Shown piece after piece: positions 28,222 to 53,010 of a stretch of DNA of 64,000 bases. Numbering within the stretch: position 1 is the stretch's first letter; each line of letters opens with the position of its first letter. The position numbers were made by a program, and so were the translations under genes. The notes beneath the pieces were generated by a model that saw only the letters and a program-made list of their open reading frames with translations, was not told where the DNA came from and did no database searches. This DNA comes from Malus domestica (taxonomy: Eukaryota > Streptophyta > Magnoliopsida > Rosales > Rosaceae), in NCBI RefSeq assembly GCF_042453785.1, contig NC_091675.1:1562501-1626500 (forward strand), written 5' to 3'.

Positions 28222-28256
<35 letters not shown>

Positions 28257-30034: not shown

Positions 30035-31419
30035 ATGGATCGAAGGAAGCTTTTATTGATCTTATTGTTAGAGATGTCTTATTTGGAGACAATTTGCATT
30101 TGTACGATTCTTGTGTTGATGATGCTACGTGGCAAACAGAGACATGTTGAACGACCCACATTGACTAACCGTTCACTTATTAGACGAGAGATTAGTTTGT
30201 GTTATCTGAATGGTATAATAGGGAATACTGATACTGAATGTGTCAACGAATTGAGAATGGATAGAAAGACTTTTGGCATATTATGTGACTTACTTCGTCA
30301 AGATGGGAGGGTAAAAACTGATGGTTTGGTGTCTGTAGAGGAGCAGGTGTGTATGACTTTACAAATATTAGCACATCATACTAAGAATCGTAGTGTTGGC
30401 GGTAGATTTTATAGGTCGGGAGAGACTATAAGTAGGTATTTCAATAGCGTATTGCAAGGAATTTTGCGATTACAAGGTATCCTACTAAAAGTCCCTCAGC
30501 CTGTGCCTATTGATTCTACAGATCCTAGGTGGCGATGTTTTAAGGTATGATGAGAATTTTTTTTTCATTTTCCCTAATCTTTAACTCTTCATTCCCTTTG
30601 TATAAATTAACAAAAACTTTTTTTTTTTTTTTTTAAGAATTGCTTGGGAGCATTGGATGGAATACACATTGATGTGCATGTACCTGAAATTGACAAACCA
30701 AGATACCGAACAAGAAAGGGTTGAGTCGCAACTAATGTGTTAGGTGTGTGTTCAGGAGATATGCAGTTCATATATGTGTTTCCGGGGTGGGAGGGTTCCG
30801 CATCAGACTCTAGAGTGCTACATGATGCAATTACTAGGCCTAATGGTTTTAAGGTACCAGCGGGTAAAACTATTACTTAGTCTCAACTTTGTAAGTTAGG
30901 TCTAGTTCTGTTTGTCAACTACAAAACACTAATAAGGTTTGTTTTTTTTTTTTTTCATTAGGTTATTATTACCTTGTAGATGGTGGTTATACAAATGGTG
31001 AAGGATTCCTTGCACCCTATAGAGGAATACCTTATCATTTATCTGAATGGGAGGGACGAACACCTTCTAATAAGGAAGAATATTTTAACATGAAGCATTC
31101 TAAGGCAAGGAATGTAATTGAACGCTGTTTTGGCTTGCTAAAAGGAAGGTGGTCGATACTAAGAAGTCAATCTTTCTATCCGATAAGGACACAAGGTCGA
31201 ATAATTACCGCTTGTTGCCTACTACACAATCTTATTAGGCAAGAGATGTCTATAGATCCAATGGAGAATTTGCCAATAATAGAAGATGGACAAAATACAG
31301 AAGAAGGTGAATATGTTGGTAGTGTTCAAACATCTGACCAGTGGACTGCAATGAGGAATGACATAGCTCAGGAAATGTATAATGAGTGGAGAGCAATTAG
31401 GAACCAGCAACCGAACTAG
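30035..31419 (+). pseudogene. PIF/Harbinger DDE transposase (HARBI1-like), one in-frame stop
   Basis: Three exons (30035-30544, 30638-30863, 30962-31419) join in phase to about 397 codons with GT-AG introns. Seen: an N-terminal helical region with RMDRKTFGILCDLL and LQILAHHTKNRSVGGRF; the first catalytic Asp in CLGALDGIHI; RYRTRKG; the second Asp in [33 protein letters not shown]; and the acidic third residue in VIERCFGLLKGRW. These fit the DDE_Tnp_4 family. A TGA at 30722-30724, right after RTRKG, interrupts the frame. A C-to-T change in a CGA codon (a typical methylated CpG decay) would explain it, as inference. Everything else is intact, so inactivation looks recent. Confidence 0.85.
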
Positions 31420-31599
31420 CTATATGTGTTAATGATAACATTTTATTTTAGTATTCCTTTTTATCATGCATTTGTTAGATATTAGCACAATGATTGGATG
31501 GTATGCAAATTAATTGGATATTATGCAAGTTGATTGGATATTATGCAAATTGATTATTTGTATGGTATTTTCCTTCATTAAAATATTTTTTGTTTAGGT

Positions 31600-32600
31600 A
31601 TGGATAACGAAAATATTTTGAATGCTACTCAAGAGCCAAAAGGAAGAAGGCGTAAATGGGAAGCATTTGAGGAAGAAGTATTACTAGGAGTTCTTGAGGA
31701 TTTTGTTGCTCGGAAGCAACGGTGTGACACCGGTGCTTTCAAACAAGGTACTTTGGTTGAAATAGCAAAAGCTGTCAATGTTTTATGTCCTCATTCAAAT
31801 ATAAAGGCAAATCCACATATTGAGTCCAAGTTGAAGAAATGGAAAAAAAACATATAGTATGGTCGTTGACATGATAAACACAAGTGGATTTGCATGGAAT
31901 GATGTCAAAAAGTGCGTTGAAGTTGACAGTGATGACGCATGGCAAACTTATGTGCAGGTTCATATCCTATTTTATTTATACATTAGTTATATTCTTGCTG
32001 CTATATTTGTTACGCATGCTAAATTTTAGTTTTGCTATGTTGATATAATCTTAGAGAAATAAAGAAGCCGATGGATGGAGAAGCAAACATTTTCCACTGT
32101 TTGATAGATTTGCATATATATTTGGAAAAGATCGGGCTACGGGTAATGTAGCCGAAACCCCTGCTCAAATGGTGGAGGAACAAAGTCATGATCATGTTGG
32201 TGAAAGTGATATTGGAGGTGAAAATTTTGTTTCTTCAATGAACCAACAAAGCCAACAAAGCCAACAAAGCACCCCATCTGAAAATAGCCAAAGAAAGAGG
32301 AAAAGAGCTGTGGGAAGTTCAAGTGATGGAACCGAGGCAATTATCAGTGGACTGAAAGATTTTTATGTTGAAAGTGGGAAGAGGATGCAAATGGTAACTG
32401 AAGCTTTAGTTCAAGGTACTGCAGATCATATTGACATAGCTAATGAACTTGAAGCAATGGGTCTCTCTCCTATGGATCAAATTGATGCATTGTCTCTTAT
32501 TTTGGATAAACCAAAAAATGTGGGAGTGTTCAGGGCAATCAAACCGGAACTCAAGAAAGTGTTCGTCCAAAGGCTTTTAAGCGACAACGCAAGCGGATGA
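31600..32600 (+). pseudogene. Harbinger accessory SANT/MYB-like DNA-binding protein, frameshifted
   Basis: Two exons, 31600-31957 and 32055-32600. Exon 1 starts MDNENILNAT and has the trihelix/SANT-like block RRRKWEAFEEEVLLGVLEDF (Myb/SANT-like family PF12776), then runs into a stop at 31855. Reading one base shorter through the A8 run at 31845-31852 continues the domain (VDMINTSGFAWNDVKK) to the donor at 31958. Exon 2 gives RSKHFPLFDRFAYIFGKDRA, a Q/S-rich linker with SQRKRKRAV, and a conserved C-terminal helical region. Product would be about 300 aa. In characterised Harbinger elements this partner binds the ends and helps the transposase enter the nucleus. The A8 indel could be a sequencing slip. 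Confidence 0.8.
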
Positions 32601-34396
32601 GGATTTTGGCTAATGTTAACATGGATGTATTTTATTAATGTTAACATGGATGTATTTTATTAATCATACAATCTTATGTTATGGCTTATAACTTAGCTTT
32701 GCACTAGTATTTTGGCTTATGTTAACTAGCCATTTTGTAAATTATGGAGATCTATTTTGGCTAATGTTAACTAATGTTAACTAGGATTTTCTAAATTATG
32801 GAGATCTTCTTATGTACTTGTATTTGTTGAAATTGCATGTATTGAGCACTATTATTTTTCTTCTGTTGGGTGATAGAGTTTAAACCAAGCTACATTTGCA
32901 AATTAAACCCAATTCTATTAGCAGGTAATAGAAACAAAACAATTGTCAATTTTTTTTAAGATTCATAATATACATGGCAAAAATATGCTCCAATTAACCC
33001 ATATCATGAGATTTGTAGCATTACTTTATTACACAATGGCAAAAATTTGTAGTCCTAGTCTAAGCAAACACAAATCTGGTGAACAGTACTGTTTTTCTTA
33101 TCCTGCTTCTTAGTCCGACATTACACCAAACGCTTCACTAAGTTAGTCCAGCTTAGTCCAGTCTAAGCCAGTCCAGCTTAGTCCCGGCAGCTAGTCCAGT
33201 CCGAGACAGTCCGGCGCAACAAACGCACCCTAAAAGCCCAAGCAGAATCGCTAAACAAAGAAAGATATCAACCCAAGGGGCTTACACAAACGGTCGGAGT
33301 TTTAGTAACTCCGGAAATTATCTATATACTAAAACCCGGTGAAAAAATACTGTTCACGAGCAGTGTATTAGCGAAAATAGCCCTCACCTGCTACCTATTC
33401 TCAGCTTATTTTTTTGTGTTGAACAGTTAATTTACGATTTTGACCCTCCTATACACGTGTTGCTCATCGTGGACGGGGAGAAGGATGGAACCATATTCTT
33501 CCATTTGCTTCCGGGCTCTTCCATTTGGTCTCATTTGCTTCCAAGAGAATCTTTCGACCTCTCTCTTAGAACCACGAAACATCCTCCTCTCTTCAACAGC
33601 ATCTCCTTCCTCCTCCAATGGACAACATCTCCCCTCCAGGCTCCTCCCTCATTCCTTCTCCTCCGTTGGACAACATCTCCTCCACTCTTTCTCTGGGTAT
33701 TTATTTCATCTCTATTTTCCCTCATATCCCTTCTTTTCCTTCAATTTTTTTTAGTAGATCTCACGTAAGCGTTTTTATGTTTCTTTGTTTGTCTATATCA
33801 TTTTTTTTGTTTTACTGTGTTTGGATATTAATCAATTGAATTGCTCCAACTAATTTAAAAATATAAATTTGGATATCCTAATGGGTTTTCTGTGCAAATT
33901 TCGTTTTAGTTATGATAAGGTGTTTATGGATTTAGAATTTTATGTGTTCATGGATTTTGGAATTTTCAATATGATTTTCCAATTTCCCTTTGCAGCATTC
34001 TTTTTTTGGTTTCTGAAGTATCTATGTGATTTATGTTCGTTCCAAGACATCATGACTTCAGTAGACATCTGATCTCCATCTTTTCTTTGTTCATGCAGTT
34101 GAAAGATTAGGTGGACAAGAAAGTAAGTGTAGTACATATAAATCAAAGCTAGGTTTTGGGATTAATTTATGAGATTAGCCTAGAGTCCCCATTAGTTCTT
34201 ATTTCCTAAATAATTGTGAATTAATGGTGCAGGGGCAACTCCGAAGTTGGTTCTTCAATTGATGAATTTTAAGGGTCTGGGTATAACTCATGTCAAGCGC
34301 CATCTTCAAGTAATTGATTTGATCCCATCAATTTCATGATCTATATATATTTTCTCTACTAATTGTACTATATATATAAGATTCAATACTTTACAA

Positions 34397-34998
34397 CAAC
34401 AACAACAACAAAGCCTTTTCCCACTAAGTGGGGTCGGCTATATGAATCCTAGAACGCCATTGCGCTCGGTTTTGTGTCAGGTCCTCCGTTAGATCCAAGT
34501 ACTCTAAGCCTTTTCTTAGAGTCTCTTCCAAAGTTTTCCTAGGTCTTCCTCTACCCCTTCGGCCCTGAACCTCTGTCCTGTAGTCACATATTCGAACCGG
34601 AGCGTCAGTCGGCCTTCTTTGCACATGTCCAAATCACCGAAACCGATTTCTCTCATCTTTCCTTCAATTTCGGCTACTCCTACTTTACCTCGGATATCCT
34701 CATTCTCAATCTTATCCTTTCTCGTGTGCCCACACATCCCACGAAGCATCCTCATCTCTGCTACACCCATTTTGTGTACGTGTTGATGTTTCACCGCCCA
34801 ACATTCTGTGCCATACAACATCGCTGGCCTTATTGCCGTCTTATAAAATTTTCCCTTGAGCTTCAGTGGCCTACGACGGTCACACAACATGCTGGATGCA
34901 CTCTTACACTTCATCCATCCAGCTCGTATTCTATGGTTGAGATCTCCATCTAATTCTCCGTTCTCTTGTAATATAGATCCTAGGTAGCGAAAACGGTC
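34397..34998 (-). pseudogene. LINE reverse transcriptase C-terminal fragment
   Basis: On the minus strand the frame from 34998 reads FRYLGSILQENGELDGD, IRAGWMKCKSASSMLCDRR, AIRPAMLYGTECWAVKHQ and MRMLRGMCGHTRKDKI, typical of the thumb and C-terminal region of plant LINE reverse transcriptases. Near 34620-34640 the reading shifts to another frame, which continues QRRPTDAPVRICDY and GRGRPRKTLEETL to a stop at 34424, so a small indel breaks it. The 3' end is an (AAC)n run at 34395-34412 on plus, a (TTG)n tail on minus. Strongly 5'-truncated. Confidence 0.85.
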
Positions 34999-36424
34999 GC
35001 TTTTTGTGATCTTCGCTAAATTGCTCCGGTCATTAGTGTGGATAAGTATATAAATGAATAGAGATAGGAAAGCAAACACAAGATGTACGTGGTTCACCCA
35101 GATTGGCTACGTCCACGGAATAGAAGAGTTCTCATTAATTGTGAAGGGTTTACACAAGTACATAGGTTCAAGCTCTCCTTTAGTGAGTACAAGTGAATGA
35201 TTTAGTACAAATGACATTAGAGTACAAATGACATTAGGAAATATTGTGGGAGAATGATCTCGTAATCACGAAACTTCTAAGTATCAGAGTGTGGTATCAT
35301 CTTGACTTGCCTTATCTGTCTCATAGGTAGATGTGGCAGCTTCTCTGGAAGTACTCTTCCTCCATCCAGGGGTGGTATCTTTAACTGGTGGAGATGCACA
35401 AGGTAATGTATCAATTTCACTTGAAGCTTACTTGTAGTTTCAGGCTTGGTCAAGCGCGATACAAACCATGTAGTAGGAGTCCCCCAAGTCGCCGAGCTAG
35501 GGGATTTGCTGAAAGAGGTGACAGACAAGGTAAGCAATCAGAGCTCCAGCTGATTGTTCACCTTCTCCCCATCTTGCAGCAGCATGAAGGATAAAGAGAA
35601 GAAAAATGAGAAGAGATGATATGGGATACTTTTGCTTTTGAAGAAGTAACTTTCCACAGGCTTATTCTTGAACTGAGCTGGAGGGTTTTCTGGTTTCCTC
35701 CAGAGTATAAGGCCGACTGAAGAATTTGAGAGTCAAAACAAGTCCATCAAATCTAGAGTACGTTCGGCCCTGCTGATATGGGATACTTTTGCTTTTGACA
35801 GAGTAATGGATGGATCGGCACGTGTGCTGTTACGCTTGTCTCCACATGCTTCCTTGTATCCTTCGCACTTGCCCTATCTGTTCCTCAAGCAGATGCGGTA
35901 TCTTCCCTGGCAACATAAGATGTTGAAGATGAGTACTCGAGAGCAATGCCAGGTAAGTAATCAGGTAAGGGGTTCCAGGCTGTCAGTTCCTGGCTGGAAG
36001 CTTGATTTCAAGTGCTGACTGATTGCTCTCTTTCTCCTTGTCTTGCAGGTAAAAACAAGGCCAAAGGAAAAGACAGGGAAAAAGCATGATATGGGATACT
36101 CTTGCTTTTAACCCTGATGATATGAGATATTCTTGCTCTAGTATAGCTTTTTTGCAAAGGTATTATCGGAGGGAAAGAAAGCTGAATATTTCGAAAGGCT
36201 TCGTTGGGAGTGCCCTCTCAGATATGAGGAAGGGTTGAGCATTTTTGCAGGTCTGCCTGTCCGTTGGGGATGGAGGTCGACATATATAGGAGTCTCCCTA
36301 ACAACAAGTAGTAATGCTATTCCTTTACCCTGCTTGGTCATAGCACGGTAGTGGGAGCTGCCAGCTTCACATGTTTTAACTCTGTCAGAGCACTTTGAAA
36401 AAGTGGTATGTGGTATCTGGCTCT

Positions 36425-38010
36425 CGAGATTCAGAGAACGATGCTTCTTCGATTTTTGAGAAAGCAATCATGGTGGGGGTCTGGCTCTCGAGATTCGGGG
36501 AGCAGTCTCTTCGATTTTTGAGAAAGTAATCATGTTGGGAGTCTGGCTCTCGAGATTCGGAAGGCAGTGCCTCTTCGATTTTGGAGTAAGCAATCTTGTT
36601 GGGAGTGTTTTCTCGGATGTGAGTAAAGGTTGGGCATGTTTGCTAGTCTACCTTGCCACGAAGCACGGAGGTTGACACACAGGGACTTTCCAATTATCCA
36701 GCAGTGGTACTGTTCCTTTACCCTTGTGGGTAATAATATGGTAGCTAGACCTTCAAAATTTATGTGTCTAAACTTTGTTAGTGCTGTTTCTTTGCTATTC
36801 TTTTACCTTTCTTGGTCAGAGTGATGTAGTGGGAGCTGCAAGCTTCACGTGCTCAACTTTGGCAGAGACTTTGACAAAGTTATCTGTGGTACCCATGAGC
36901 TATTGTTGCGTGTGGGAAGTGGGTGATTGAACAGTAAGATTCATGTGCTTTCTACTTCACCAGAAGTCTTCGACAGAATGCCCATAATTTCCGCAAAGCT
37001 AAGTGTGCGTGTGACAGGTGCTGACAAGGCTAGAAAAGAAGGTGCCTCTTCGATTTCTGAGATCGGCCCTCGTGGTCTCTGAGCAGCCCAGCTTTTGAGA
37101 AAGCGAGCGCCTCTTCGATTGATTCGGAGAACGATGCCTCTTTGATTTTTGAGAAAGCAATCATGCTGGGGGTCTGGCTCTCGAGATTCGGGGAGCAGTG
37201 TCTCTTCGATTTTTGAGAAAGTAATCATGTTGGGAGTCTGGCTCTCGAGATTCGGAGGGCGGTGCCTCTTCGATTTTGGAGCAAGCAATCTTGTTGGGAG
37301 TGTTTTCTCGAATGTGAGTAAAGGTTGGGCATGTTTGCTAGTCTACCTTGCCACGAAGCACAGAGGTTGACACACAGGGACTTTCCAATTATCCAGCAAT
37401 GGTACTGTTCCTTTACCCTCTCTTCGATTTTTGAGAAAGTAGTCATGTTGGGAGTCTGGCTCTCGAGATTCGGAGGACGGTGCCTCTTCGATTTTGGAGC
37501 AAGCAATCTTATTGGGAGTGTTTTCTCGAATGTGAGTAAAGGTTGGGCATGTTTGCTAGTCTACCTTGCCACGAGGCACAGAGATTGACACACAGGGACT
37601 TTCCAATTATCCAACAGTGGTACTGTTCCTTTACCCTTGTGGGTAATAATATGGTAGCTAGACCTTCAAAATTTATGGGTCTAAACTTTGTTAGTGCTGT
37701 TTCTTTGCTATTCTTTTACCCTTCTTGGTCAGAGCGATGTAGTGAGAGCTGCAAGCTTCACGTGCTCAACTTTGGCAGAGAACTTTGGCAAAGTTATCTG
37801 TGGTACCCATGAGCTATTGCTGCGTGTGGGAAGTGGGTGATTGGACAGTAAGATTCATGTGTTTTCTACTTCCCCAGAAGTCTTCGACAGAATACCCATA
37901 ATTTCCGCAAAGTTGAGTGTGCGTGTGACAGGTGCTGACAAGGCTGGAAAAGTAGGTGCCTCTTCGATTTCTGAGATCGGCCCTCGTGGTCTCTGAGGAG
38001 CCCATCTTTT
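36425..38010. repeat. Tandem ~0.7-kb duplication with nested 218-bp duplication
   Basis: 36425-37118 recurs from 37119 onward, with matching starts GAGAACGATGC. Inside the second copy the block 37201-37418 is immediately repeated as 37419-37636, both starting TCTCTTCGATTTTTGAGAAA. After this the rest of the 0.7-kb unit continues (GTGGGTAATAATATGGTAGC at 36728 and 37640). The copies are only slightly diverged. Confidence 0.85.
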
Positions 38011-38165
38011 GAGGAAGCGAGCGCCTCTTCGATTTCTGAGATCGGCTTTCGTGGTCTTTGAGCAGCCCAACTTTTGAGAAAGCAAACACCTCTTCGATTT
38101 ATGAGATCAACCCTCGTGGTCTCTAAGCAGCCCAGCTTTTGAGAAAGCAAACGCCTCTTCGATTT
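37959..38165. repeat. 65-bp tandem repeat, about three copies
   Basis: CCTCTTCGATTT starts at 37959, 38024, 38089 and 38154, exactly 65 bases apart. Each unit also contains CTCGTGGTCTCT- and CTTTTGAGAAAGC-type blocks. It ends 170 bases before the ATG of the retroelement ORF. Confidence 0.9.
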
Positions 38166-38331
38166 CTGAGCAGGCGCCTCTTCGATGTCTGAAGCTCCGT
38201 CGAGTGCAGCTTTTTATAGGGGCTGGCATTAAGTTCCAAAGCACACTTGAATCTCCACCAGTAGAAGCTCCATTCTTGCACTTCTAAGATCTTGATTTGT
38301 CCGACCTCTTCTCTCTTCAATACCTTTGAAA

Positions 38332-39006
38332 ATGTCTGGCCCCTCCGACCGTCGTTTTGACTTGAACCTTGTTGAAGAGGCAGCCCCGCCTTCTCTAGAC
38401 AACATATGGCGCCCATCCTTCGTCTCCCCTACTGGTCCTCTTACCGTTGGGGATTCCGTGATGAAGAATGATATGACCGCTGCGGTGGTGGCCAGGAACC
38501 TTCTCACTCCCAAAGATAACAGACTACTTTCCAAACGGTCTGATGAGTTAGCTGTTAAGGATTCACTGGCTCTCAGTGTTCAGTGTGCAGGTTCTGTGTC
38601 TAATATGGCCCAACGCCTATTTGCTCGAACCCGCCAAGTTGAATCATTGGCGGCCGAAGTGATGAGTCTCAAACAGGAGATTAGAGGGCTCAAGCATGAG
38701 AATAAACAGTTGCACCGGCTCGCACATGACTATGCTACAAACATGAAGAGGAAGCTTGACCAGATGAAGGAAACTGATGGTCAGGTTTTACTTGATCATC
38801 AGAGATTTGTGGGTTTGTTCCAAAGGCATTTATTGCCTTCGTCTTCTGGGGCTGTACCGCGTAATGAAGCTCCAAATGATCAACCTCTGATGCCTCTTCC
38901 TTCTAGGGTTCTGTCCAGTACTGAGGCTCCGAATGATCCCCCTCCGATGCCTTCTCTTTCTGGGGCTCTACCGACTACTGAGACTTCTCCTAAGCAACCT
39001 TTGTGA
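38332..39006 (+). CDS. Retroelement-encoded coiled-coil protein of unknown function
   Basis: Intact 224-aa frame from ATG at 38332 to TGA at 39004-39006. The N-terminus MSGPSDRRFDLNLVEEAAPP is followed by LDNIWRPSFVSPTGPLTVGD. A central helical region (about 75-145) with RQVESLAAEVMSLKQEIRGL and HENKQLHRLAHDY looks like a coiled coil. The C-terminus is a Pro/Ser-rich tail with three imperfect copies of LPSSSGAVPRNEAPNDQPL-type units of about 20 residues. No gag zinc knuckle, protease or polymerase motif is present. It lies at the 3' side of a gene-poor LTR element after a repetitive leader, where I recall similar frames in other apple copies. A structural (gag-like) or host-derived role is a guess. 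The open frame, despite repeats around it, suggests recent constraint or youth. Confidence 0.65.
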   Translation: MSGPSDRRFDLNLVEEAAPPSLDNIWRPSFVSPTGPLTVGDSVMKNDMTAAVVARNLLTPKDNRLLSKRSDELAVKDSLALSVQCAGSVSNMAQRLFARTRQVESLAAEVMSLKQEIRGLKHENKQLHRLAHDYATNMKRKLDQMKETDGQVLLDHQRFVGLFQRHLLPSSSGAVPRNEAPNDQPLMPLPSRVLSSTEAPNDPPPMPSLSGALPTTETSPKQPL

Positions 39007-39235
39007 AGGCTCCATCTTGTTTGTTTATTTTGACTCATGTATATGTACATATTTGTAGCTTATCGGGGATATCAATAAATAAGTTTTCCTTCATTTCAAC
39101 GTATTGTGTTAAATACACCAAAGCCTTCTTCGCTAAGTTCTTTGAATTTTCTTTTGTTGAAGCTTGTATGTTGAAGCTTTCTGAGTGGAGCATGTAGGTT
39201 GGGGTAGTGTTCCCTTAATTTTTCGATATAAATTA

Positions 39236-42200
39236 AGGGTTCATCTCTGATTAATATTGTTCTACATTTTCTTCTTTGATTTCATCATCCGATGTATAGG
39301 AGCAAGAAGATGGAAAACCCCAATCGAGGTGAACAAATTAACAAATTGCACACAGGCTCATCTACTCTTCCAATAGTTAATACAAAAGTTAGGGTTTACA
39401 TATTTATAAACTTGAGAGATCTTGCTTTCTTATTATATGACAGATCCAGCATTATAGCTCCAATCAAACGCATAGTGTCTATTTTAATTTTCTCAGTGTG
39501 AATTGGCCATTTCTCCTTTACAAAATGGTGCACCAAAATACTGGATAGTCGGAATGTGAAACCAATTTAACTCTCACTTAAAAGCATAGATAATTTCAGT
39601 GTTATACAGCTGCAAGTTATGTTTTACTTATTCTTTGAACCCTTTACTTCCCTTCTAAGCTTGAAAGCAGGAAACTAAGTCGCCAAGACCCTAGACTGTT
39701 CCAAGGGCTAGGAGGTCATCCTTGAGCAACCTGGCATGTGGATTTTAACAACATGGTTGGGCTTCTGAACCTCATTATATTTCCCTTTTTTTTTTCTTAT
39801 ATAGAATGCATCTATCTGCAGATTTAAACAAGTCATTTTCTGAATTTTCAGGGCATTGAAATTCAAGCTCAGGCGGTACCCCTATTTCAAAGAAAATGAG
39901 ACCACTTGAAAATGGTAACCCAATTACTTTCTTTGTTGTTTTTCCTTAATGGGATATCGATTCCTTGCTTTTTAATGAATTTTTGGCTTACGTATTTTGA
40001 ATTTTTGAGTTTCAAGGCACAGTTGCCCAGTATGTATAATTGTTTTCGTAATTTTATATTCAGCACCGCTTGCCAATTTATTGTATGAATACTTTCAATA
40101 TCAATGTAAAACTAAAATATTCAATAAAGAACAAATAAGCATACTTCATCCTGTACTCTATATTAAATTATGTTTAGTCAAACCAATCTAAAGTATGATG
40201 CATTTAATGTTTTTAATTTCAAAACATTTTTATACACCAACATTATTATTCTAATCAAAAGTTGTCTCTGGTAAAGTTTTTTGCATGATGATATAGCAAC
40301 GGTTATAGCTATAGCTAATAATAATATATGTATATGTCAACGATAGTATATACCACTGCATAAATATATCAGTATGTGAAGGTTAATGGCATACTTGATC
40401 CTTGCATGACATGTACATGAAATACTAAGTTTCATACCACTGCATAATATATACCTCAAATTCTGTGGCATGCAACCACCATTTTTAATTTGCATGATGT
40501 CATATTAGTTTCATTACATAAAAAGTTCCTGTTGATAAATTTGTGCTGACATCATGCTCTGCGTGATTTTGTTCACGCTTATCTCTTAAGGGTTGAAGTT
40601 GAGGAGCACCCAGAGATATTCGAGGTGCCTATTCGGTTTCTGTTGTGCCGTTTACTGCCTTTGCCAAGGTATGCTTATACGTGTTTTCTTGGTGGTTTTG
40701 ATGTTGCCAGTGTGATTTTTTTAATAAGCATTATGTTGTTGGATATCAAATGGGAGAAAAAGGTTTTACATTTGGTTAATCAGGTTGTATGAATGTGGGG
40801 TATTCATGTGTTGCTACTGTTGAGTTGTTTTTGGTGGCATGTACGGTTTACAATTGTGTTAAGGGGGTATTATTATTGTTAATTATATGATAATATTGGT
40901 GGTATGATTTGTTTTTAATGAGAATTGAGTATTAATAGGCTCCGTTTATGATGCCAAACTCAACATTTGAGAGACGGAGGTAGAAGTTTAATTGGAACAC
41001 TTTGTTAGTTTGTGTTACTAACAAAACAGTTGTGATACTAATCTAGAGCTACTTTCATATTGATTCATCATCATTGATAAGTTTTCTTTGGACCCTATAG
41101 AAATCATAATTAACTATTCACTAATCTGCTGCTTTATTGTCACTGACTCTTTAGATTGGGAAGCACCATATTGTTTCCAAATGATTAGTTTGATAGGTAC
41201 TTAACAATTTCCCAAGGCATGAGGCACTTGCTTTTTTTTGTGTGTAAAAGACTAACACCATGCGTCCATGATAACTATTATAATTAAGAACCAATTTGTT
41301 TAAAAATACCTCAATTATTGAGAACGACATATATGTCCATGATAACTATTATAATTAAGAACCAATTTGTTTAAAAATACCTCAATTATTGAGAACGACA
41401 TATATGTCCGATTAGTTTGATTGAAACTAACAATTGTTCAAATTGCAAAGAAAATGAAACATTCTCTCTCTCCTCTTTTTCTCTCCTATTGCATTTGGGT
41501 TTATCCCTGTTTCTTTTTTTGTTGATCTAATTTGGGGTGAAGTTGAATTTTGGTTGAACTAGAATGTGGGTTTAATTGTGTTTGGTTTTATTTGTCAATT
41601 CTATTTTCGTATGATTAGTGTGTGGTTTTTCAGACCTTTATGGCCATTTTGGGTCTGGCAAAGGTACTAATTTTACTCTTCATTCCACCACTTTCATTTG
41701 AATGCCTGGAAAAATTTGGAATTGAAAACATGATTGGGTTGTATTAGTTTTTGTGAAGATTACTTCTTGATTTGAGGTGTGTGAAAATATATTTTGATGA
41801 TCAGGAGATGAGAGTACAAGTTTTCGCTTCTATCTGGACATTCAAGAACCACCAAATTGCATTATGTTTTCATCACCGAATTCAGGACAAGAAAGCTGTA
41901 CATGCCTCATGTATTACGTATAATCACTTGCTTACATTTCTGTTTCTCATTTGTACCTAATTGGTTCAGATTTTTGTTTTTTTATAAATAGTAATATGTT
42001 CTATGACAAGCTGGCTCTGTTTCTGATTTCATTCTTAGTTTGGATTTATATATAAACCTGCAAGCATGCAGTTGATTAGTATATTTGGTGTTTTCCCTCT
42101 TAATGGACAAACTTGCAGTTACATAATATATAAGTTTGGTACGATCTGATTATTGTGTTTATCTCATTACTTCAACAGCACAAAAAATCTCTCCTAATTA

Positions 42201-42280
42201 AGCTAAGTAGTTAAGCGAAAGAAGCCCCCATACCTACTTTTCTTTATGTGTATATAATTTTGGTATAGACAATTTCTATT
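39236..42280. other. Remaining Helitron interior with exon-like fragments
   Basis: After the GARP exon piece at 39292, the sequence is intron-like. Two stretches look like captured exons on plus. About 39852-39920 lies between TTTTCAG and GTAACC and can read ALKFKLRRYPYFKENETT then stop. 40605-40669 reads VEVEEHPEIFEVPIRFLL and CRLLPLP before a GTATGC donor. I cannot name the family. A 71-bp perfect or near-perfect tandem duplication occupies 41264-41405. Nothing else is recognisable. Confidence 0.4.
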
Positions 42281-42311
42281 CCCGCAGCAACGCGCGGGTT
42301 TCAATTTCTAG
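42281..42311 (+). other. Helitron 3' terminus: hairpin plus CTAG
   Basis: CCCGC at 42281-42285 pairs with GCGGG at 42294-42298 around an eight-base loop. TTTCAATTT follows, then CTAG (42308-42311), then host T. This is the recognition structure for rolling-circle termination in Helitrons. Confidence 0.75.
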
Positions 42312-42411
42312 TATCATCTACAAGTAAACCAACAATTGAAGGAGGAACGTCATCCAATATGATACACAGCCCAGGTGAAAAAAAAAAAAAAAAACTCAGG
42401 TCGTTCTATTT

Positions 42412-42620
42412 CCTGGAGGATCCTCTTTATCAGCATTCTGGGGATCTTCAAATCGTGTCAGTTTATCGTATATCATGCGATCAGTTTTCGTTAGGTACTA
42501 TTTATATTTAATTTAAAATAAAATTATTTAAAATGATTTATGAACGCACAATATACGATGAACGTACATGATTTAAGGATCCCAGGATCTTCACAAAGAG
42601 GATCAAGAAAGGATCCTCAT
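42412..42620. mobile_element. MITE with GAGGATCC ends and 11-bp flanking repeat
   Basis: Inverted ends GGAGGATCCTCTTTATC and, reversed, GAGGATCCTTTCTTGATCC. Flanked by the direct repeat TCGTTCTATTT at 42401-42411 and 42621-42631. The core includes TTATTTAAAATGATTTATGAACG and ACAATATACGATGAACG, shared with the copy at 53931-54131. The 9-11 bp duplication suggests Mutator superfamily. Confidence 0.65.
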
Positions 42621-42981
42621 TCGTTCTATTTAGGGGCAGAACCTTTTTGTTCTATCTTTTCCTTTTTTTTTTAATCTTGGTTGAAATGTAGCACAATCAT
42701 TCAAACTCTTTAATTTTTCATTTGATTAATTTTTACATAGTTGATGTTCAAATAAAATATAAACGATTGTAATTATCATGTAACATTGCAGAAGTAGTAG
42801 AAAAGCCAATGAGAAACCTCCCAAATTATTAACTTGCAAAGGTTTTTCTTCCACTTAAACTATTTAAATAGAAAATGAATTCAAATGTGGGGCCGACGAA
42901 GGAGATTATAAGTCCTACCGATCAAAAACTTTAAAATATAGGATACCTCGGAGCAAGCTAAAAAATTCCTGTTCTCTACAA

Positions 42982-45900
42982 CTACGAGTGCATGGCACTC
43001 AACACTTTGAGAGCAACAGCTTCTTGTTCCGCCAAAGATATTGAGTCAGCAATGAACCCTAATTTATCCTTACTTTCTTTTATCTCACCATCATCATCAT
43101 CACTGCCAAAATATATCTTTGACCTTTTGTGGGGTCGATTTGCGTATGCCTCTCCTTCTGAATCAGAAACATCCTCCTCCTTCTCGTATGTGTTTCCTCT
43201 CTTCCACTTCATCTTATTCTTCAAGCGTTTTTCACGACGGCGATTGTGGTATTGAGCCTTGTCATCCTTGTCCTCCTTCTTCAGACCTTCCCTGAGCTTC
43301 TTGTAATATTCGGTCTTCTTGTCTGCATAAAGAAAGAGACACATTTCAAGGCAACAATTTTTTCAGAAGAAGCAAGGTAAAACACCGTGTTTTTCCAATA
43401 GATGATGTTATTTGGGCACACGAAACTGATGCACTTATCGACACAATCTCTACTGCATACCTTGAATTTGATCAAGCGGAGCTCTGGCATTGTTGATATC
43501 AGCCAGCCTTGCTAGTGGCGGTAGTGAGTTGCCTTCGTCATCAAAGACAACTCTAGTTCCCACTGGTCTGTGGATATTGATCTTTAACTTCTTCTTCTTC
43601 TTCTTCGAAACCCGGGTTGACAATGTAGAAGGCGACCTATGAGGAACGGGATTATCATATATGAGCTCAAAGTTTGATGCATCCACAAATACTAAAGGTT
43701 GATGAAATTTTTAAGCGATCATTTGATAACCATTTCGTGACAATGGTAGCCCCTTTAAGCTAATAATCCGAGTTAAAACAAGTATAAAAACATAAAATGC
43801 AAGAAACTCACATAGTATGTTCGATTTTTCTTCCTTCCCAGTCTGCGGCATTTGCTGTATCATTTGTAAGAAAAGGATCTTTCTCCCTATCTTCTTCACT
43901 AGAATCACTGATATCAAGCTCCTCCTTAGGAAGCAGCTCAAATTTGTTAGTGTTACTCTGATTTTGCTGGGTTTGTTTTAGAATGCTGAACAGAAGCAAA
44001 GCAAAGATGGAAGATGAACCGAAATAGTTTTTTTTTTTCTTTTCTATTCTCTCTGCTGCAAAAGTATTGCAGAGGAATATTTTTGTACTACTCAGAAAAA
44101 TGAGCACTCACACTGCTTTACATTTAACTGATGGCCTTAGCTTTAGGACCACACTAAACACTACTTTTAATCTTAGTCACTCACCAACCTAATTACATGG
44201 ATCAAACACCACATGGCACTCATGGCCTTACATCATTTAACCTTACACTTGGCAGATATGCTCAAATGAATACACACATTAAAACTCATCTTATTTCTAA
44301 TACTTAATCAGCTAGAGACTTATAATTCAACACTCCCCTTTAAGTCTTGAGCTGATTTCACTCCTAGCATGTTCCTGAGATAATTAAACCGATCTTTAGG
44401 CAGAGGTTTTGTGAAGATATCAGCAAGTTGTTCATTAGTTGGACAGTACACCAGATCAATGATACCATCCTTCAGTGCATCCTTGATGAAATGGTATCTT
44501 CTGTTAATGTGTTTGGTCTTTTGATGAAACACAGAGTTCTTGGTGATTGCAATTGCTGAGGTGTTGTCACAGTGCACTGGAGTGGCTTCGGTTTGAAATT
44601 CACCAAAGTCTTCAAGCACAAATCTCAACCAAATGGCTTGAGTAGTTGCTTCTGAAGCACTAATGTACTCTGCTTCTGCAGTGGAAAGAGCAACGCAATT
44701 TTGCTTCACAGATGCCCAAGAGAATACTCCACTGCCAAAGGAGAAAGCATAACCAGAAGTACTTTTACTGTCCTCAATTGATCCACTCCAGTCACTGTCA
44801 CAGAACCCAATTAACATTGAGTTCTTACCCTTCACATATTCCAGACCATAATCAAGTGTACCCTTAATGTATCTTAGCACTCTTTTAGCAGTTCCAACAT
44901 GCTTACTGGTAGGGCAGTGCATAAATCTGGCTAACAGACTGGATGCATACATAATATCAGGCCTGGTTGCAGTGAGATATAAGAGACTTCCCACCAAACT
45001 TCTGTATAACTCTTCACTTGCAGCACCACTTCCATCATTCGTGGTTAACTTCTCAGTTGCAACTAATGGAGTAAGCACAGGTTTGCACTCTTTTAGACCA
45101 AATTTGTCTAACAAAGAGCTTGCATATTTCTTTTGGTGGATGAAAATGCTTGAAGTGGTCTGAATTATTCCCATTCCAAGAAAATGATGTAGAAGGCCCA
45201 AATCAGTCATCTCATACTTTCGTTTCATGTCTTCCTTGAATTCTTCAAGCATTTGTTTGTTGCTCCCAGTATAAATTATGTCATCCACATAGATCGACAC
45301 AATCAAAATGCCTTTCTCTTCTGTCTTGATGTACAGTGTTGGTTCACTTAAGCTTCTTGTGAAACCACATTGTGAGAAATAGGTATCTATTTCTCCATAC
45401 CAGGCCCGTGGTGCCTGTTTTAGACCATACAAGGCTTTGTGAAGTTTGTATACCCTGTCTTCCTCCCCTTTAGCTACAAAACCATCAGGCTGCTCCACAT
45501 AAACCTCCTCCTCTAGAACACCATTCAGAAAAGCCGATTTGACATCAAGTTGATAGAGTTTCCAACACTTTTGTGCAGCCAATGCTATAAGAGTTCTGAT
45601 TGTATCTAAACGGGCAACAGGAGCAAAGGTCTCGTTGTAATCTATTCCTGGTTTCTGGGCATATCCCTTTGCAACAAGCCTTGCCTTGTTCTTTTGCACA
45701 GTTCCATCCAAGTTGAGCTTGGTTTTAAACACCCATTTTACTCCAATTATAGGCTTGTTACTTGGCCTGTCCACTAACTCCCAGGTTGCATTCTTTTCAA
45801 TCATTGAAAGCTCATCCTTCATGGCATTCATCCAAGATTCATCCTTACTTGCATCTTCATATCTCTCTGGTTCCATAATGCACAGATTACATTTAGCAAG

Positions 45901-48900
45901 TACATCATCCAGCCTTCTCCATTTTAATGGAGTATGATCAATCACTTGTGAATCTCTTGTACTTTCACATGATCTACTAGAGGATTCAGTAGATTGGACT
46001 TGAGGAGTAACCGGTGCATTATCAGTATCACTTGTTATTTCTGTCAAACTTCTAGATGGCAAAGTATTAGAGGCTGGGGTCTCAACCTCTGTGAATGCAC
46101 TGCTTGGTGACTCACCAGACTGCCCTTCATAATTGAACATAGACACATGTTTCTCTGTGCTTTCCTGCCAATTCCAACTTGAATCTTCATCAAACACAAC
46201 GTCTCTTGACAGTATTACCCTTTTAGAAAGTGGATCAAAGACCCTATAACCTTTCTCACACCTTGCATAGCCAATAAAAACTCCCTTTAGACTCTTAGCT
46301 TCTAATTTGTGCCTTAATTCAGCTGGGATATGAACATAACAAACTGAGCCAAAAATCTTCAAATGTGCAATACCCGGTTTCCTTCCACTGTAAGCTTCAA
46401 AGGGGGTTATGTTATCAAGAGACCTGGTAGGACATCGATTCAGAATGTACACAGCAGTATGCACAGCTTCTGCCCACATATAATAGGGCATTCCTTTATC
46501 GTGTAGCATAGACTTAGCCATTTCAACCACGGTTCTGTTTTTCCTTTCCACCACTCCATTTTGCTGTGGAGTGTATGCAAGAGAAAGTTGCCTTTGAATG
46601 CCTTCTGTATCACAGAACTGATTGAACTCAGTAGACAAGAACTCCCATCCTCTGTCACTCCTCAGACATTTCACCCTTAAACCAGTTTGTAACTCAGTCA
46701 TTGCTTTGAATTTCTTGAAACAGGAGAAGGCCTCAGATTTATATTTAAGAAAGTATACCCAGATCATTCGTGTTGCATCATCCACAAGCAGCATAAAGTA
46801 TTTGTTTCCTCCAGTGGATTCATTTCTCATTGGTCCACATAGATCAACATGGATCAATTCGAGTGAAGCACCAGCTCTTTGTGCTTGACCACTAGGGAAA
46901 CTTTCTCTGTGCTGTTTACCATATTGACAACCTTCACAGACTCTATCATTCTCTTCTAGATCTGGTAATCCATGAACCATATCTTTCCCCTTCAATTGTT
47001 TGATTCCACCAAAGTTCAGGTGGCCAAGTCTTCTGTGCCAAGTCCGGGCACAGTTAGCAAAACTGAGCTTCAACACAAGTTGCTTTTCAGGACTTAGAGA
47101 TAGGGGATAGCATCTGTTTCCTCTCATCTTCACACTGATAATTTGACATTCCAGAGAAGGGCCATCAAAGACAGTACACATACCTCCACCAAACACAAGA
47201 TAGTATCCGTGCTCATCCATTTGTCCTACACTAAGTAGATTCTCTTTCAAGCCAGGTAGGTACATGACTTCTCGAATGTATTTTCTTCCTCTGTTAGTCT
47301 CAATTTCCAGTGATCCAATTCCTGCCACATTAACTAATCCTCCTGTTGGCATTTGAACCTTCCCTGCAACATTTGTATTCACATCAACAAGAAGATCAAC
47401 ATTTCCTGTCATATGATTACTGCAGCCGCTATCTATGTACCAATCTCCATTAACCTTAGTCTCAGCAACTGCACAATTTGCATAAAACAAGTTCCCTGTT
47501 ACTTCCATTTGATTGGCACAGTTTGCCTTTTGAACAGACTTTCCAACAGTACATTCTTTTGCCCAGTGCCCAAATCTGTCACAGTTATAGCACTTAGATT
47601 TCCCCTTATACCTACATTCACCATAATGAAACTTTGAACACACCTTACATTGAGGTTTTACACTCTCTTGACCCATACCCTGTGAGGAAGTACTATTCTG
47701 TGCAACACTTGTGTATGATTTTTGCTGAAACTTTGGTTTTGACTCCCATTTCTTGCCCTTTTTATTCCAATTTCTCTGTGGTTTAAAGGTACTAGACTGA
47801 GCATAACTTCGATTCTGCCCTTTTGAACAAACAGTAAGAGAAGAAAATGCTCTCTCAGTTGCATCTGAGGAATGCAAATCAAACCTCTGCTCTTGACTCT
47901 TCAATATAGCTAATACCTCTTGCAGTTCAACAGATTCTAAACATTTAGTGTTTTCTATCACTAAGCATATAGGATCATATATCTTAGTGAGACTGATTAA
48001 CACCTTCTGAACTAATCTCTCATTTGACATAGTTTCACCAAACGTCTTCATTTGATTAATCAGATCATTTAAACGAGTAAGATACCCAGTCAAAGATTCA
48101 TCATCACGCATTCTAGTGTATTCAAATTCTCGTCTAAGATTTTGGAGTTTCACAGATCTTACCTGATCCCCACCGTGATATTCGCCATATAACAGATCCC
48201 ATGCCATTTTTGCTGAGTCTGCGTTTGCGATTCGAGGGAAAATCTGATCGGAGACTGCGCTTTGAATGATTCCGAGAGCTTTTGCATCTTTCATGAAGAT
48301 TGCAGCCATTTTCTCATCATCGTCAGCATCAACCTCTGTATGTTCATCAGTCTTAGCTTTCTTCTTCTTCGAATCAGGAACCGGAATCCCTTTTTCCACC
48401 AGATTCCACAGTCCATACGACTTGAAAATGGTAACCATTTTGATTCTCCAGAACTCGTAGTTCTCACCGGAGAAGATCGGGGTCCTCACTTCAGCACTCC
48501 CAGGTCCAGCCATCGTGAGCTTGTGTGAATCCAGAAACACGTAGTTCTTAGATCACAGATAAGCTCCGGCAAACTTCACCAAGTCCAGAGACGGTGACGT
48601 TTGAGCTCACAGAAACACGCCCAGATCTAATCGAAACAAGGCTCTGAGGCCATGTTAGTGTTACTCTGATTTTGCTGGGTTTGTTTTAGAATGCTGAACA
48701 GAAGCAAAGCAAAGATGGAAGATGAACCGAAATAGTTTTTTTTTTTTCTTTTCTATTCTCTCTGCTGCAAAAGTATTGCAGAGGAATATTTTTGTACTAC
48801 TCAGAAAAATGAGCACTCACACTGCTTTACATTTAACTGATGGCCTTAGCTTTAGGACCACACTAAACACTACTTTTAATCTTAGTCACTCACCAACCTA

Positions 48901-51494
48901 ATTACATGGATCAAACACCACATGGCACTCATGGCCTTACATCATTTAACCTTACACTTGGCAGATATGCTCAAATGAATACACACATTAAAACTCATCT
49001 TATTTCTAATACTTAATCAGCTAGAGACTTATAATTCAACAAAATTCATTGTCCTTGTCCAAATTTTCTGGTTCAACAATGGGAGATAGTTCGGACACTT
49101 TCTTAGAGGAGTTATTGATTTCGTTGTTTAGAAAACGCATTCTGGGTGGGAACGGTAGACCTATCGATTTGGAAAACTCATCAATTGGTAGTTCTTTAAC
49201 GTCGAAAATCTCTTTGTCCTTCTGTTTTTTAACAGACTTTACATATGTGATAACGGCCCTATTAGCCACACCACGTAGTAGATCTGGGTCCTGGACTATC
49301 TTAGATGCCAACAATTTAGACAGTGATTGCACAAGGTCCTTGTTAGGCTGAGAAATCAGTAAAACAGCTAATTAGTTTAGCGTAGTACACAAGCAATCGG
49401 AGATGGCGGGAACGATAATTAAAAAGATGTGAAATGAAAGAAAATATAACCACCTTTTTTTCCCGAATGGGTATTTTTGCTGCTTGTAGTTTATCAAGCA
49501 TTTTTTCTTCAGACGGCATCAGAAATAAAAGCGATCTCCCTACAGAATCGAAGCGAGCAGTTCGACCAACTCTGTGTATGTAAGATGCAACATCTTCTGG
49601 ACAATCCACCTACACATGAGAAAAAGTATCAGCACTTAACGACGCTGTGACGAAATGAGTAACGGATGATTCGGGTCGAGAGAAAATGAAAAGCTCAGGG
49701 GCTATATGATTAATAACAACAATCTTGGAGTAGCAAAAAACTCACCTGAACAACCCAGTCAACTGCCTGGTCGAAGTCAAGGCCTCTTGAAGCCACATCA
49801 GTCGAAAAAAGAACTATAGGATTCTTACTAAACTGTGAGACTGTTACCATTCTTTCCTCTTGCTTCCTCTTACCATGAATACGCTTCAAAGGTATTCCGG
49901 GTTGGAGTTTTGCAAATGCTTTGTATACAAATTCTACCTATTAAAACAAAAATTCGACAATCAAACTTGGTAAAAATATGGATCAGGCAACAGGTGTATT
50001 ACGTGAAAAAATGGAGGTGAAATATTCACCCCGATGATCAGGCACGACATTGGAATCTGAGACGCATTGAAATAAGTCAAAACAAGGTCGGCGTACCTGT
50101 TTTCTGGTTGATAGAAACACTAGAATCCTAGATTTTAAGTTACTTCTTATGAAGCCCCACAACATGTCTAACTTTCGGTGAAGAGGAACGATGATATATG
50201 TTTGCTGCAAATTAGTAGGAGTGGCTGTTACAGACTTCTCATGCACACTGACGAACTCTGGATCTTTCAAACAGAGAGTTGCAAGATCCTTAACATCTTT
50301 TGGATGAGTTGCTGAAAAGAGAAAAATTTGCCTATCCTTTGGTAGATCTTTAATGATTAACTCCACTGCGGGCTTAAAACTTGCATCACTGAGCATACGA
50401 TCTGCCTCATCAAGGACTAAAACCTGTTCCCTGGCCGAAAAAGTCCACCCAAATCAGCAGAAAAAATAGAAACGCAACTTATGTGACAAGGGTACACCGT
50501 TACTCTGGCATCCCGCACCAATGATACAACGTCAAGGTAACTTTGGACAATAGGATGCAAAGTGAGACCGATTTTAAGTTGCATGATGTTGAGTAAGACA
50601 CATTGAATTTCAGATGTTAAGTGAGACCGAAATCAAAATCATAACACTAATAGATGATAAAGTAAACCTGAAGCTGTGAACAGAAAAAATGTTCAGTCTC
50701 ATTCATGTGCTGAAGAAGCCGGCCAGGCGTGCAAACCAATATGTTGAGCTTATTTGCACGCTCCTTCTCTTCTTTGACTCCTTTTCGACCCCCAATTAGA
50801 AGACCAGCACTAAAATCATGGTGCCTCCCAACCGAATTCAACACAAGAAAAGTTTGAATGGCTAATTCCCTTGTTGGAGATAGTACGATAACGCCCACAC
50901 CATCGTCACGACACCATCTCTCTCTATACAATTTTTCCAAAAGCTGAAAAGGGAAAGGCAACGAAACTCACAACTTGAATATTTTTGTTTTCTTTTTCAC
51001 AGTTTCTAACGTGCCCAATTTTCAACGCCTTCCATATTTAGCTAGATTAGTTTAAACTTTATATTATGACATCACTTGCATAAACACACAAAAAAACCCT
51101 AAACCCTAAAAAACCTTACCGGTATAACGAAAGCTAGGGTCTTCCCGGATCCAGTCTTGGAGGCACCGCGAACATCTCTGCCGCATAGGGCATGGGGCAA
51201 AGCGGCCCTCTGAATATCGGTCATTACAATGTACTTGGATTGGCGTAAGGCGTCCTTAGTCTTCTTGGAGATGGGCAACTGCTCGAACCTAGTGGCGCCG
51301 GCGTACCGCGAAAAGAGGGTGGGGTTGCCCACGCGACCGAGAGGGGCGTCTGAGGGCAAATCGGGAAGAGACATGGGGTTAGAGCCGCGTTCGGGTTGCT
51401 GGGATTCGATCCACGATTTCAGAAGCTCAATTTCTTGGAGTTCCTCCGAGAGTTTCTTTTTGATGCGATATTTCTTTGATTTGAGTTTTCTCAT
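42982..51494 (-). CDS. RH32: DEAD-box ATP-dependent RNA helicase 32, coding exon 6 interrupted by a Copia element
   Basis: Exons on minus: 51494-51120, 50943-50668, 50423-50097, 49937-49746, 49609-49454, exon 6 split as 49347-49047 and 43944-43812, 43636-43461, 43322-42982 (stop TAG). Leaving out the retrotransposon and one 5-bp duplication gives 758 codons in phase, close to the 739 aa of Arabidopsis RH32 (DDX10/Dbp4 group; nucleolar 18S rRNA processing). Seen: Q-motif region [15 protein letters not shown], motif [10 protein letters not shown], Ia PTRELA, Ib [52 protein letters not shown] and [13 protein letters not shown]. The C-terminal extension is Lys- and acid-rich. With the insertion, translation would stop one residue after the junction (about 545 aa), keeping both RecA lobes but losing about 213 residues. 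Confidence 0.92.
43945..44332 (-). repeat. Copia 3' LTR
   Basis: Plus-strand sequence TGTTAGTGTTACTCTG to AATTCAACA. Preceded by the TSD AAATT. The gag-pol stop codon lies 13 bases inside it (44320-44322). Contains an 11-T run at 44028-44038. Confidence 0.95.
44320..48513 (-). CDS. Copia gag-pol polyprotein
   Basis: Uninterrupted frame of 1397 aa from the ATG at 48513 (MAGPGSAEV; the frame continues upstream without ATG) to a TAA at 44320. Domains in order: gag with [13 protein letters not shown] near the N-terminus (UBN2-type); a zinc knuckle [14 protein letters not shown] at about 315-328; protease active site [10 protein letters not shown]; pre-integrase [16 protein letters not shown]; integrase core with [16 protein letters not shown] and [13 protein letters not shown]; reverse transcriptase (RVT_2) with the catalytic YVDDIIYTG; and RNase H with [16 protein letters not shown] and HCDNTSAI. 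No stop or frameshift is present, and catalytic motifs appear intact, so the copy is potentially autonomous. Transcription cannot be judged from sequence. Confidence 0.95.
44333..44341 (-). promoter_or_regulatory. Polypurine tract of the Copia element
   Basis: On minus, AAAGGGGAG directly precedes the 3' LTR start TGTTGAATT. It is the expected primer for plus-strand DNA synthesis and overlaps the last codons of gag-pol. Confidence 0.75.
48640..48652 (-). promoter_or_regulatory. Primer-binding site of the Copia element
   Basis: On minus, TGGCCTCAGAGCC immediately follows the 5' LTR. It resembles the initiator-Met tRNA site TGGTATCAGAGCC with two differences (CC for TA). A tRNA-Met primer is inferred. 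Confidence 0.6.
48653..49041 (-). repeat. Copia 5' LTR
   Basis: Same sequence as 43945-44332 apart from a 12-T instead of 11-T run (48736-48747). Followed by the TSD copy AAATT at 49042-49046 and helicase exon 6 sequence. Confidence 0.95.
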
Positions 51495-53010
51495 TGTGGT
51501 TTTGGTTGTGTTTCAACTTTGGACTGTGGATGGATGAGGAGAGACAGGTTCTAGAGAGAGAGGGGCAAGGTCTTGGAGAGAGAAGGTGAAGGTAGAGATT
51601 AGGGTTTATGTTTGGTGAAGGTAAAAAGTAGGGTTTATGCTTGGGTTAAACGGCTAAGTTATTGGTTTGGGAAAGGAAATTAACTTAACGTGTTTATGAC
51701 GGAATAATGGTAACGTTTCAATTGCATCCCTAAATTATAATTATACATAACAATTAGTTCAAATTAGAATATCTTGCTGATTTAAAAAATTAATAATAAT
51801 ATACTGACCTTTTTTTATATAAAATCTACAATATGAGTAACAAATGTGCGAGGAAATTCGACTTTTTACAAGAAGCGAACACCTTAGATATGCATCCCAA
51901 AATTGCAAAAATTGAATCTATATAGACTTCTAGAGAAGAACGTCACTTGAATTATAGAGACGACAATCATTATCTGCTGGCCTTGAACTCTTGCAGTTCA
52001 GAAACTTCCATGCGAGTTTTATTATTTGGTTAACAAAATGAAGGAGATCGCATGGAGTCTCATAAGTGTGATATATAAGTCAATTATTAACAATAATTTT
52101 GTTGGGGGTGATGACGACCAACCTTTCAAACTTGATGCCGATATGATCATGTCACTTCTTTCCGACATTTGAAAAGTACTGGTTTAATTCGATACTTCCA
52201 CCTTGGACGGTTCTGAATGAACCTACTCCATGAAAAGCAACGATTCTATATCCATGTCATTATGCATGTCTTTAACTTAAGGATTCTACATATTCGATCC
52301 AATTTAGCACATGTATTGTTTGTTTTAATTTTTTTTTTAATATAAACAATACTCCACTCTAAATTTAATCTCAACTTCGCTCAGAAAGAATTATATATAA
52401 CGGAAAGAGGGATTCGAGTTTCGGTGTCGAGAGAAGAGTCCATTATTTTAGCAAATTTGGCTAATTCAAATACGTGTTATTAAATAAAGGTTTATAAAAT
52501 TATTATGATAATGATATATAGTCTCTTGATTCTCTTCATTTATCCTTGACTGTCTTCATTTATCCGAGCCTAAGCATTTAGCTTTTCTGCATTTTTATGT
52601 GTTTCGCTTAATCTAATCGGTCTTCAAAGGTTATACTAATTAAATGACGTGGCATGTTTTAAGTTGTTAGATTATTATAATGGACTATATAAATAAAAAA
52701 AGCAGAAAAGCTATAATTAATGTAGAGACTCATAATCCTTCATTCATTGAGACAAACGAAGTGGCCTTTTTTTCTTTTTCTCAGGACATTTAAAGGAGCT
52801 GAAAGGAAAATACAATGACTTTTGGAAAACTAAAGGAAAAACGCAACATTTTAGCTAATCACATTTGACTCTTGTTGTCCTGTGTAAATATATATATGTA
52901 TATATATATATATATATATTGCTACTTGGACGGTTCTGCATTTTCTTTTATGTTGAAACTTAAAAATCTTTATTTCCATCTATGAACTGATCGATCTGGC
53001 TTTCTCTCCT
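51495..53010. other. Promoter side of RH32 and spacer
   Basis: 51495-51640 is the likely 5' UTR of RH32, with GAGAGA stretches on the plus strand. The rest is AT-rich, with a (TA)n microsatellite at about 52889-52919. The part next to 53011 would be the 3' UTR of the RADIALIS-like gene. No other gene seen. Confidence 0.5.

Follow-up and report, generated by a model that had tools for sequence, protein, structure and literature searches.

A recent Copia insertion ends the frame of what looks like a diverged RH32 helicase duplicate in apple

Does a retrotransposon in a coding exon of a ribosome-biogenesis helicase gene mark damage to an indispensable gene, or the loss of a copy that the plant can do without? 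The question is raised by a 64,000-nucleotide stretch of Malus domestica DNA (the window; C15:1562501-1626500), in which a Copia element lies within an RH32-like gene. The first-pass annotation of this stretch took the gene to be one usually needed for 18S rRNA maturation and expected the allele to be hemizygous or heterozygous, or covered by a paralogue from the Maleae genome duplication.

Reading the window directly, we found a structurally complete Ty1/Copia element of 5,097 bp on the minus strand (43945-49041), in the same orientation as the helicase gene. Together with its target-site duplications (TSDs) it occupies 43940..49046, exactly as first annotated, and the LTRs, the AAATT duplication and the domain order all agree with that call. 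The LTRs are two direct repeats (388 and 389 nt) spaced 4.7 kb apart, with TG..CA ends and a 5-bp TSD, and aligned to each other they are identical at 388 positions and mismatched at none, the single gap falling in a T-run. The position of a primer-binding site beside the right repeat, and of a purine tract beside the left one, places the element on the minus strand (Table 1); the primer-binding site, TGGCCTCAGAGCC, resembles the complement of the initiator tRNA-Met. The single gag-pol frame (1410 codons from stop to stop), translated and searched against Pfam in three separate pieces, gave Retrotran_gag_2, zf-CCHC, gag_pre-integrs, rve, SH3_retrovirus and RVT_2 in that order, with YVDD, D-D-E, HHCC and CCHC patterns in the frame. 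Integrase thus precedes reverse transcriptase, and both the gag and RVT_2 are of copia type. At substitution rates of 1.5e-8 to 4e-9, zero changes over 388 LTR sites give a 95% upper bound on insertion age of 0.26 to 0.97 million years; the insertion had been called recent, and LTRs that differ by one homopolymer T bear this out. No viral contig matched a 32-nt LTR pattern exactly, and searches of the 64-kb window for Rfam families (gathering score) and for tRNAs were both negative.

Table 1. Window coordinates of the Copia element and of the RH32-like gene that it interrupts
Feature	Position	Strand	Remark
3' LTR of Copia element	43945-44332	-	388 nt
5' LTR of Copia element	48653-49041	-	389 nt; minus-strand start TGTTGA gives the in-frame TGA that ends the helicase frame
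TSD AAATT, left copy	43940-43944	unstranded	
TSD AAATT, right copy	49042-49046	unstranded	
Primer-binding site	48640-48652	-	immediately after 5' LTR
Polypurine tract region	44333-44350	-	immediately before 3' LTR
gag-pol frame, single and uninterrupted	44320-48513	-	1397 codons from first ATG; stop just within 3' LTR
RH32-like gene exon 1	51120-51494	-	ATG at 51494
RH32-like gene exon 2	50668-50943	-	
RH32-like gene exon 3	50097-50423	-	DEAD motif
RH32-like gene exon 4	49746-49937	-	
RH32-like gene exon 5	49454-49609	-	
RH32-like gene exon 6, 5' part	49042-49347	-	up to residue 544
RH32-like gene exon 6, 3' part	43812-43939	-	from residue 545; separated by element
RH32-like gene exon 7	43461-43636	-	cut off
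RH32-like gene exon 8	42982-43322	-	cut off; stop and protein end similar in all three copies

The Copia family to which the element belongs is recently active. A search with its LTR gave 213 candidates, 40 of which were scored and 30 fetched, and 14 LTR pairs (the window's included) could be measured from 28 of the 30 loci, L048 and L054 being excluded because the partner was not fetched. Pairwise K ranged from 0 to 0.010, six of the 14 pairs had zero mismatches, and 12 of the 14 had a 5-bp TSD, the exceptions being the copy on C9, which has none, and that on C10, where one end is unresolved. Among the 40 scored of the 213 candidates, the closest other LTR (C2:7.44) is 97.4% identical without gap columns (the initial search had given 94-95% at best), and the source copy is thus not among the scored candidates. 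A misassembly may have arisen at the element borders, though 11 of the 13 sister LTR pairs measured align to both LTR ends.

We also screened the outer flanks of 12 other copies (C10 was omitted for its unresolved left end) for stop-free frames of at least 50 aa that end no more than 12 nt from the junction, a definition under which intronic insertions would be missed. Twenty such frames occurred in nine of the 12 copies; three had a Pfam match above the cut-off and 17 had none. The C9 copy splits a matrixin gene between its PG_binding_1 and Peptidase_M10 parts, and on C5 a Sey1_3HB frame adjoins the element on one side. Recognisable coding sequence therefore adjoins three of the 13 members whose flanks were examined (window, C9 and C5). 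As separate observations, the C9 sister element (G000 C9:2507569-2512666; L031, L032) has identical LTRs within the matrixin (MMP) frame and no TSD, and next to the C1:6.85 copy there is a frame of 322 codons that may be coding. Another Ty1/Copia element with exon targets is ATCOPIA93/Evade in Arabidopsis epiRILs, which, according to PMC6668482, prefers exons and has essential genes under-represented among its targets; the insertion described here appears to fit that pattern.

The host gene has eight exons on the minus strand, with GT..AG at all seven introns. As the sequence stands, its product is 545 aa long and ends in DKDNEFC, the stop codon being the TGA of the LTR start TGTTGA; with the element removed and a single TSD copy kept between the flanks, the frame runs to 758 aa. 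The eight-exon model confirms both lengths as first annotated, and the AAATT duplication does fall within coding exon 6, with both flanks coding in one gene frame. Under a codon model trained on exons 1-5 versus the introns of this gene, the last 40 codons before the junction score +12.5 bits and the 42 codons after it +27.3 bits in the gene frame, while all 21 intron frames score negative, a result to be read with the fact that the same seven introns trained the model. Exon 6 is, moreover, continuous and free of the element in both paralogues described below (on C8 and C13), so the insertion site is coding sequence, and an intronic insertion was rejected on these two grounds. A C-terminal fragment started from the 3' LTR was considered and found weak, its first in-frame ATG (172 residues) standing behind two out-of-frame ATGs in exon 6.

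The retained part of the protein contains the Pfam domains DEAD (residues 92-264), Helicase_C (301-410) and CTE_SPB4 (469-512), and the core DEAD-box motifs are present, although motif V was read by eye, the regular expression ARG.D having matched nothing; the helicase motifs are thus spared by the insertion, as had been proposed. Over the first RecA domain (RecA1), the best solved chain is human DDX10 (266 bits), followed by DDX18 (174 bits), and the assignment to the RH32/DDX10 family holds on this comparison. The whole 545-aa query places DDX18/Has1 chains first, the solved DDX10 entry being RecA1 only. In its RecA1 match and in the order of DEAD, Helicase_C and CTE domains the protein thus resembles DDX10/Dbp4/RH32, and a table in PMC5809497 groups AT5G54910 (AtRH32), DDX10 and Dbp4p in a single row.

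We searched the assembly (651 Mb, 19 contigs) for further RH32 loci by exon DNA searches and by a search with the protein sequence of the tail, and found three in all, on C15, C8 and C13. The C13 copy, which answers the suggestion that an intact paralogue be sought, is intact by sequence: it encodes 744 aa with GT..AG introns and no element (L009 8145 to ~4092, minus strand), and its first 579 residues have the same three Pfam domains as the C15 protein. To DDX10 the C13 copy scores 305 bits, the C15 copy 266. Six acceptors of its exon 7 preserve the frame (700-786 residues), of which we adopted the acceptor that has a pyrimidine tract. In this copy, exon 2 is fused to exon 3 (L009 6605-7201), without the intron 2 that the C15 and C8 copies have. 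The C8 copy is broken, with TAG at codon 235, a one-base insertion (+1 frameshift) near codon 309 and DEVD for DEAD; differences at its exon 6/7 border hinge on splice-site choice and were left uncounted. Its exons 1-7 lie in L003 and exon 8 lies 17 kb off (C8:1518514-1518852), across an intron 7 of ~17 kb (C8:1518852-1536179).

A paralogue that could cover for the interrupted gene therefore exists, as anticipated, but it does not come from the Maleae duplication. By NG86, Ks/Ka is 0.366/0.145 for C15-C8, 0.538/0.176 for C15-C13 and 0.516/0.169 for C13-C8, and two neighbouring C15/C8 pairs that serve as a yardstick have Ks of 0.196 (a KCS gene) and 0.157 (an HhH-GPD gene). The C8 partners of these two genes and of window 62605-62979 lie within one block, at 2.081, 2.096 and 2.115 Mb. 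In this collinear block, window 42716-42816 corresponds to 2103401-2103501 and window 52008-52222 to 2103607-2103801, leaving 105 bp between the matches where C15 has RH32; the RH32 exons had a single 15-nt match (E 0.007) and nothing else in 20 kb of the block. The C8 RH32 copy lies at 1.52-1.54 Mb, ~560 kb away, so that the C15 gene is without a collinear homoeologue and the C8 copy is another locus. The C15/C8 pair is thus neither collinear in position nor equal to the neighbouring pairs in Ks, and, given Ks above that of the neighbours and absence from the collinear C8 site, the RH32 copies are not whole-genome-duplication copies. The empty collinear site may reflect either loss on C8 or gain on C15. 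We rejected the C8 copy as intact genome-duplication cover on its broken frame, its Ks of 0.366 and its non-collinear position.

Window 25451-42716 (~17 kb, from the KCS-side genes to RH32) has a counterpart of ~224 bp in the collinear C8 block and contains several tandem repeat arrays. A 1.6-kb degenerate TG-rich tandem array (27641-29271; strong GC skew, +0.57 over 28001-30000) overlaps long open frames in several frames, one of which was searched in Pfam without a match. The KCS gene (FAE1/CUT1-type, window 18543-20300) has dispersed partial copies at C14:14086603, C16:30346468 and C13:35807007 (94% identity) that share common borders (query 460-1460, together with a separate piece that starts at 149 and stops at 326 or 331), with shorter pieces at additional loci, and it looks as though a KCS fragment was captured and spread by a mobile element. 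Two parts of the HhH-GPD gene (window 4763-6019; query ~370-452 and 510-600) recur adjacently at ten other loci with 79-94% identity, as if this gene held or had donated a repeat. Elsewhere in the assembly, none of nine RuBisCO large-subunit matches, including those on large contigs (G000 C11:39518576-39519502 and C2:3873467-3874195), is a full uninterrupted frame, and the best has an internal stop.

Which of the three RH32 copies is the conserved one was judged over RecA1, where identity to human DDX10 is 140/211 for C13, 128/212 for C15 and 124/212 for C8. In Tajima tests over this domain with DDX10 as the outgroup, C15 has 20 unique changes versus 8 in C13 (p 0.023, 211 sites) and C8 has 19 versus 4 (p 0.002), while C15 and C8 do not differ significantly (10 versus 14, p 0.41). 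C15 and C8 also share changes beside motifs II and III at positions where human DDX10 and C13 agree: the DEADRILDxGF common to human DDX10 and C13 is altered in C15, with C8 similar, and C15 has SATHPKD, again with C8 similar, in place of the common SATQTKS. The C15 gene thus looks, from its sequence, like a diverged duplicate, its faster rate being shown over RecA1 (211 sites). It follows that the presumed requirement for 18S rRNA maturation need not extend to this copy.

Branch estimates over the whole coding sequence, made by hand, gave Ks/Ka of 0.194/0.076 for C15, 0.172/0.069 for C8 and 0.344/0.100 for C13 plus stem, hence Ka/Ks of ~0.39, 0.40 and 0.29, respectively. The C13 estimate, which is the largest, cannot be separated from the stem, and it therefore speaks neither for nor against C13 as the conserved copy. 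The value of ~0.39 indicates that the C15 duplicate was evolving non-neutrally before the insertion and may have had a role of its own. In neutral simulations on the C13 coding sequence (kappa 2) at the C15 rate of 0.194, none of 400 runs stayed free of stops (mean 13.7 stops), which argues that the C15 frame was under selection until lately. The single stop in C8 fits a neutral time of ~0.01-0.02 substitutions/site (mean stops 0.9 and 1.8). In this assembly, each member of the pair thus seems to have been lost recently and by an event of its own.

Taking these results together, we consider it probable that a member of a recently active Copia family inserted recently and thereby ended a diverged RH32 duplicate, one selected until lately, and that the C13 copy remains. 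The element inserted, in the gene's orientation, into coding exon 6 of what looks like a diverged RH32 (DDX10/Dbp4) duplicate. Transcription from the RH32 promoter would then enter the 5' LTR, whose first bases would stop translation after residue 545. A message ending at LTR poly(A) signals would encode a helicase core without its C-terminal tail, and one that runs on would be decayed as a nonsense message, so the C15 copy probably gives little or no useful product and would be null or nearly so. We propose that the plant tolerates the insertion because it still has the more conserved RH32 on C13, which may act as functional cover. The disruption accordingly looks like the ordinary loss of a spare, diverged copy and not like damage to an indispensable gene, and it need not have cost the plant an essential function. 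The evidence comes from one assembly, and the other haplotype may be intact. Among the literature matches listed, no title or abstract opening names the insertion, which does not amount to its absence from print.

In another, unlikely reading, C15 and C8 formed a second, specialised RH32 lineage, selected since before the genome duplication, changed at residues common to human DDX10 and C13, and now being lost by two independent routes; point mutations in C8 and the Copia insertion in C15 would be those routes. If C15 still yielded the 545-residue core or were spliced back, segregating alleles would be a natural test, probing the role of the Dbp4 tail and of the second lineage.

That the 545-residue helicase is abundant and functional, or acts as a tail-less competitor of the C13 protein, strikes us as quite unlikely. 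In its favour, all catalytic motifs and the CTE are retained, the stop follows immediately past the junction, and poly(A) signals could come from the LTR. What is missing from the C15 product, however, is the C-terminal extension with its end, encoded by exons 6-8 and cut off by the element. The end in exon 8 is alike in C15, C8 and C13, and C13 retains it with a putative end helix; the cut-off C15 residues matched no Pfam family at E 0.01 and no solved structure up to E 10. In yeast, the Dbp4 C-terminal extension carries a coiled coil that orthologues are said to share (an unpublished observation of the authors of PMC3950691), and an AlphaFold model in PMC9160021 places Dbp4 754-770 near Bfr2. 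Given the similar end in all three copies and this modelled yeast contact region, the lost tail may be important for function.

Splicing of all or part of the element out of the pre-mRNA, with near-normal helicase still made, we regard as improbable. It has a precedent in Evelknievel, like the present case an LTR retroelement with a target duplication that truncates the frame of a coding exon (Arabidopsis CMT1, exon 13): PMC6238269 reports three variants from which splicing removed the entire element, one of them (25%) frame-restored. Evelknievel differs in its host, CMT1 as opposed to a helicase duplicate, and in being a silenced element, partly spliced out, that leaves very little full-length message, whereas the C15 insertion is known from sequence. 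Here, 181 GT-AG combinations that start in exon 6 and end either in the 3' LTR or in the remainder of that exon would leave the frame open to the gene stop, and the 3' LTR offers a good acceptor (ACTTTTGCAG, score 9.1). However, many such combinations are expected by chance, and among the best 15 of the 181 the top donor scores 4.0 versus 4.6 for the weakest authentic donor on a rough matrix.

Disruption of an essential gene, kept only as a heterozygote or hemizygote, is very improbable: Dbp4 is essential in yeast (PMC9196750), a table in PMC5809497 lists one DDX10/Dbp4 gene each in Arabidopsis, rice and maize, and the matching LTRs would allow a young polymorphism, but another RH32 copy, on C13, is intact by sequence in the same assembly and closer to human DDX10 over RecA1, so that the hemizygosity first expected does not follow.

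The preferred reading, loss of a diverged duplicate with C13 remaining, makes this locus a clean case of a young Copia insertion that ends a housekeeping-type gene present in duplicate, two paralogues of which display the empty site. It illustrates that what appears to strike an essential gene may in fact have struck a diverged duplicate, and that lethality should be inferred only after a search for other copies. The locus would be usable as a marker if polymorphic, and, with both members of the diverged RH32 pair broken and the older paralogue intact, it is useful for studying the fate of duplicate genes.
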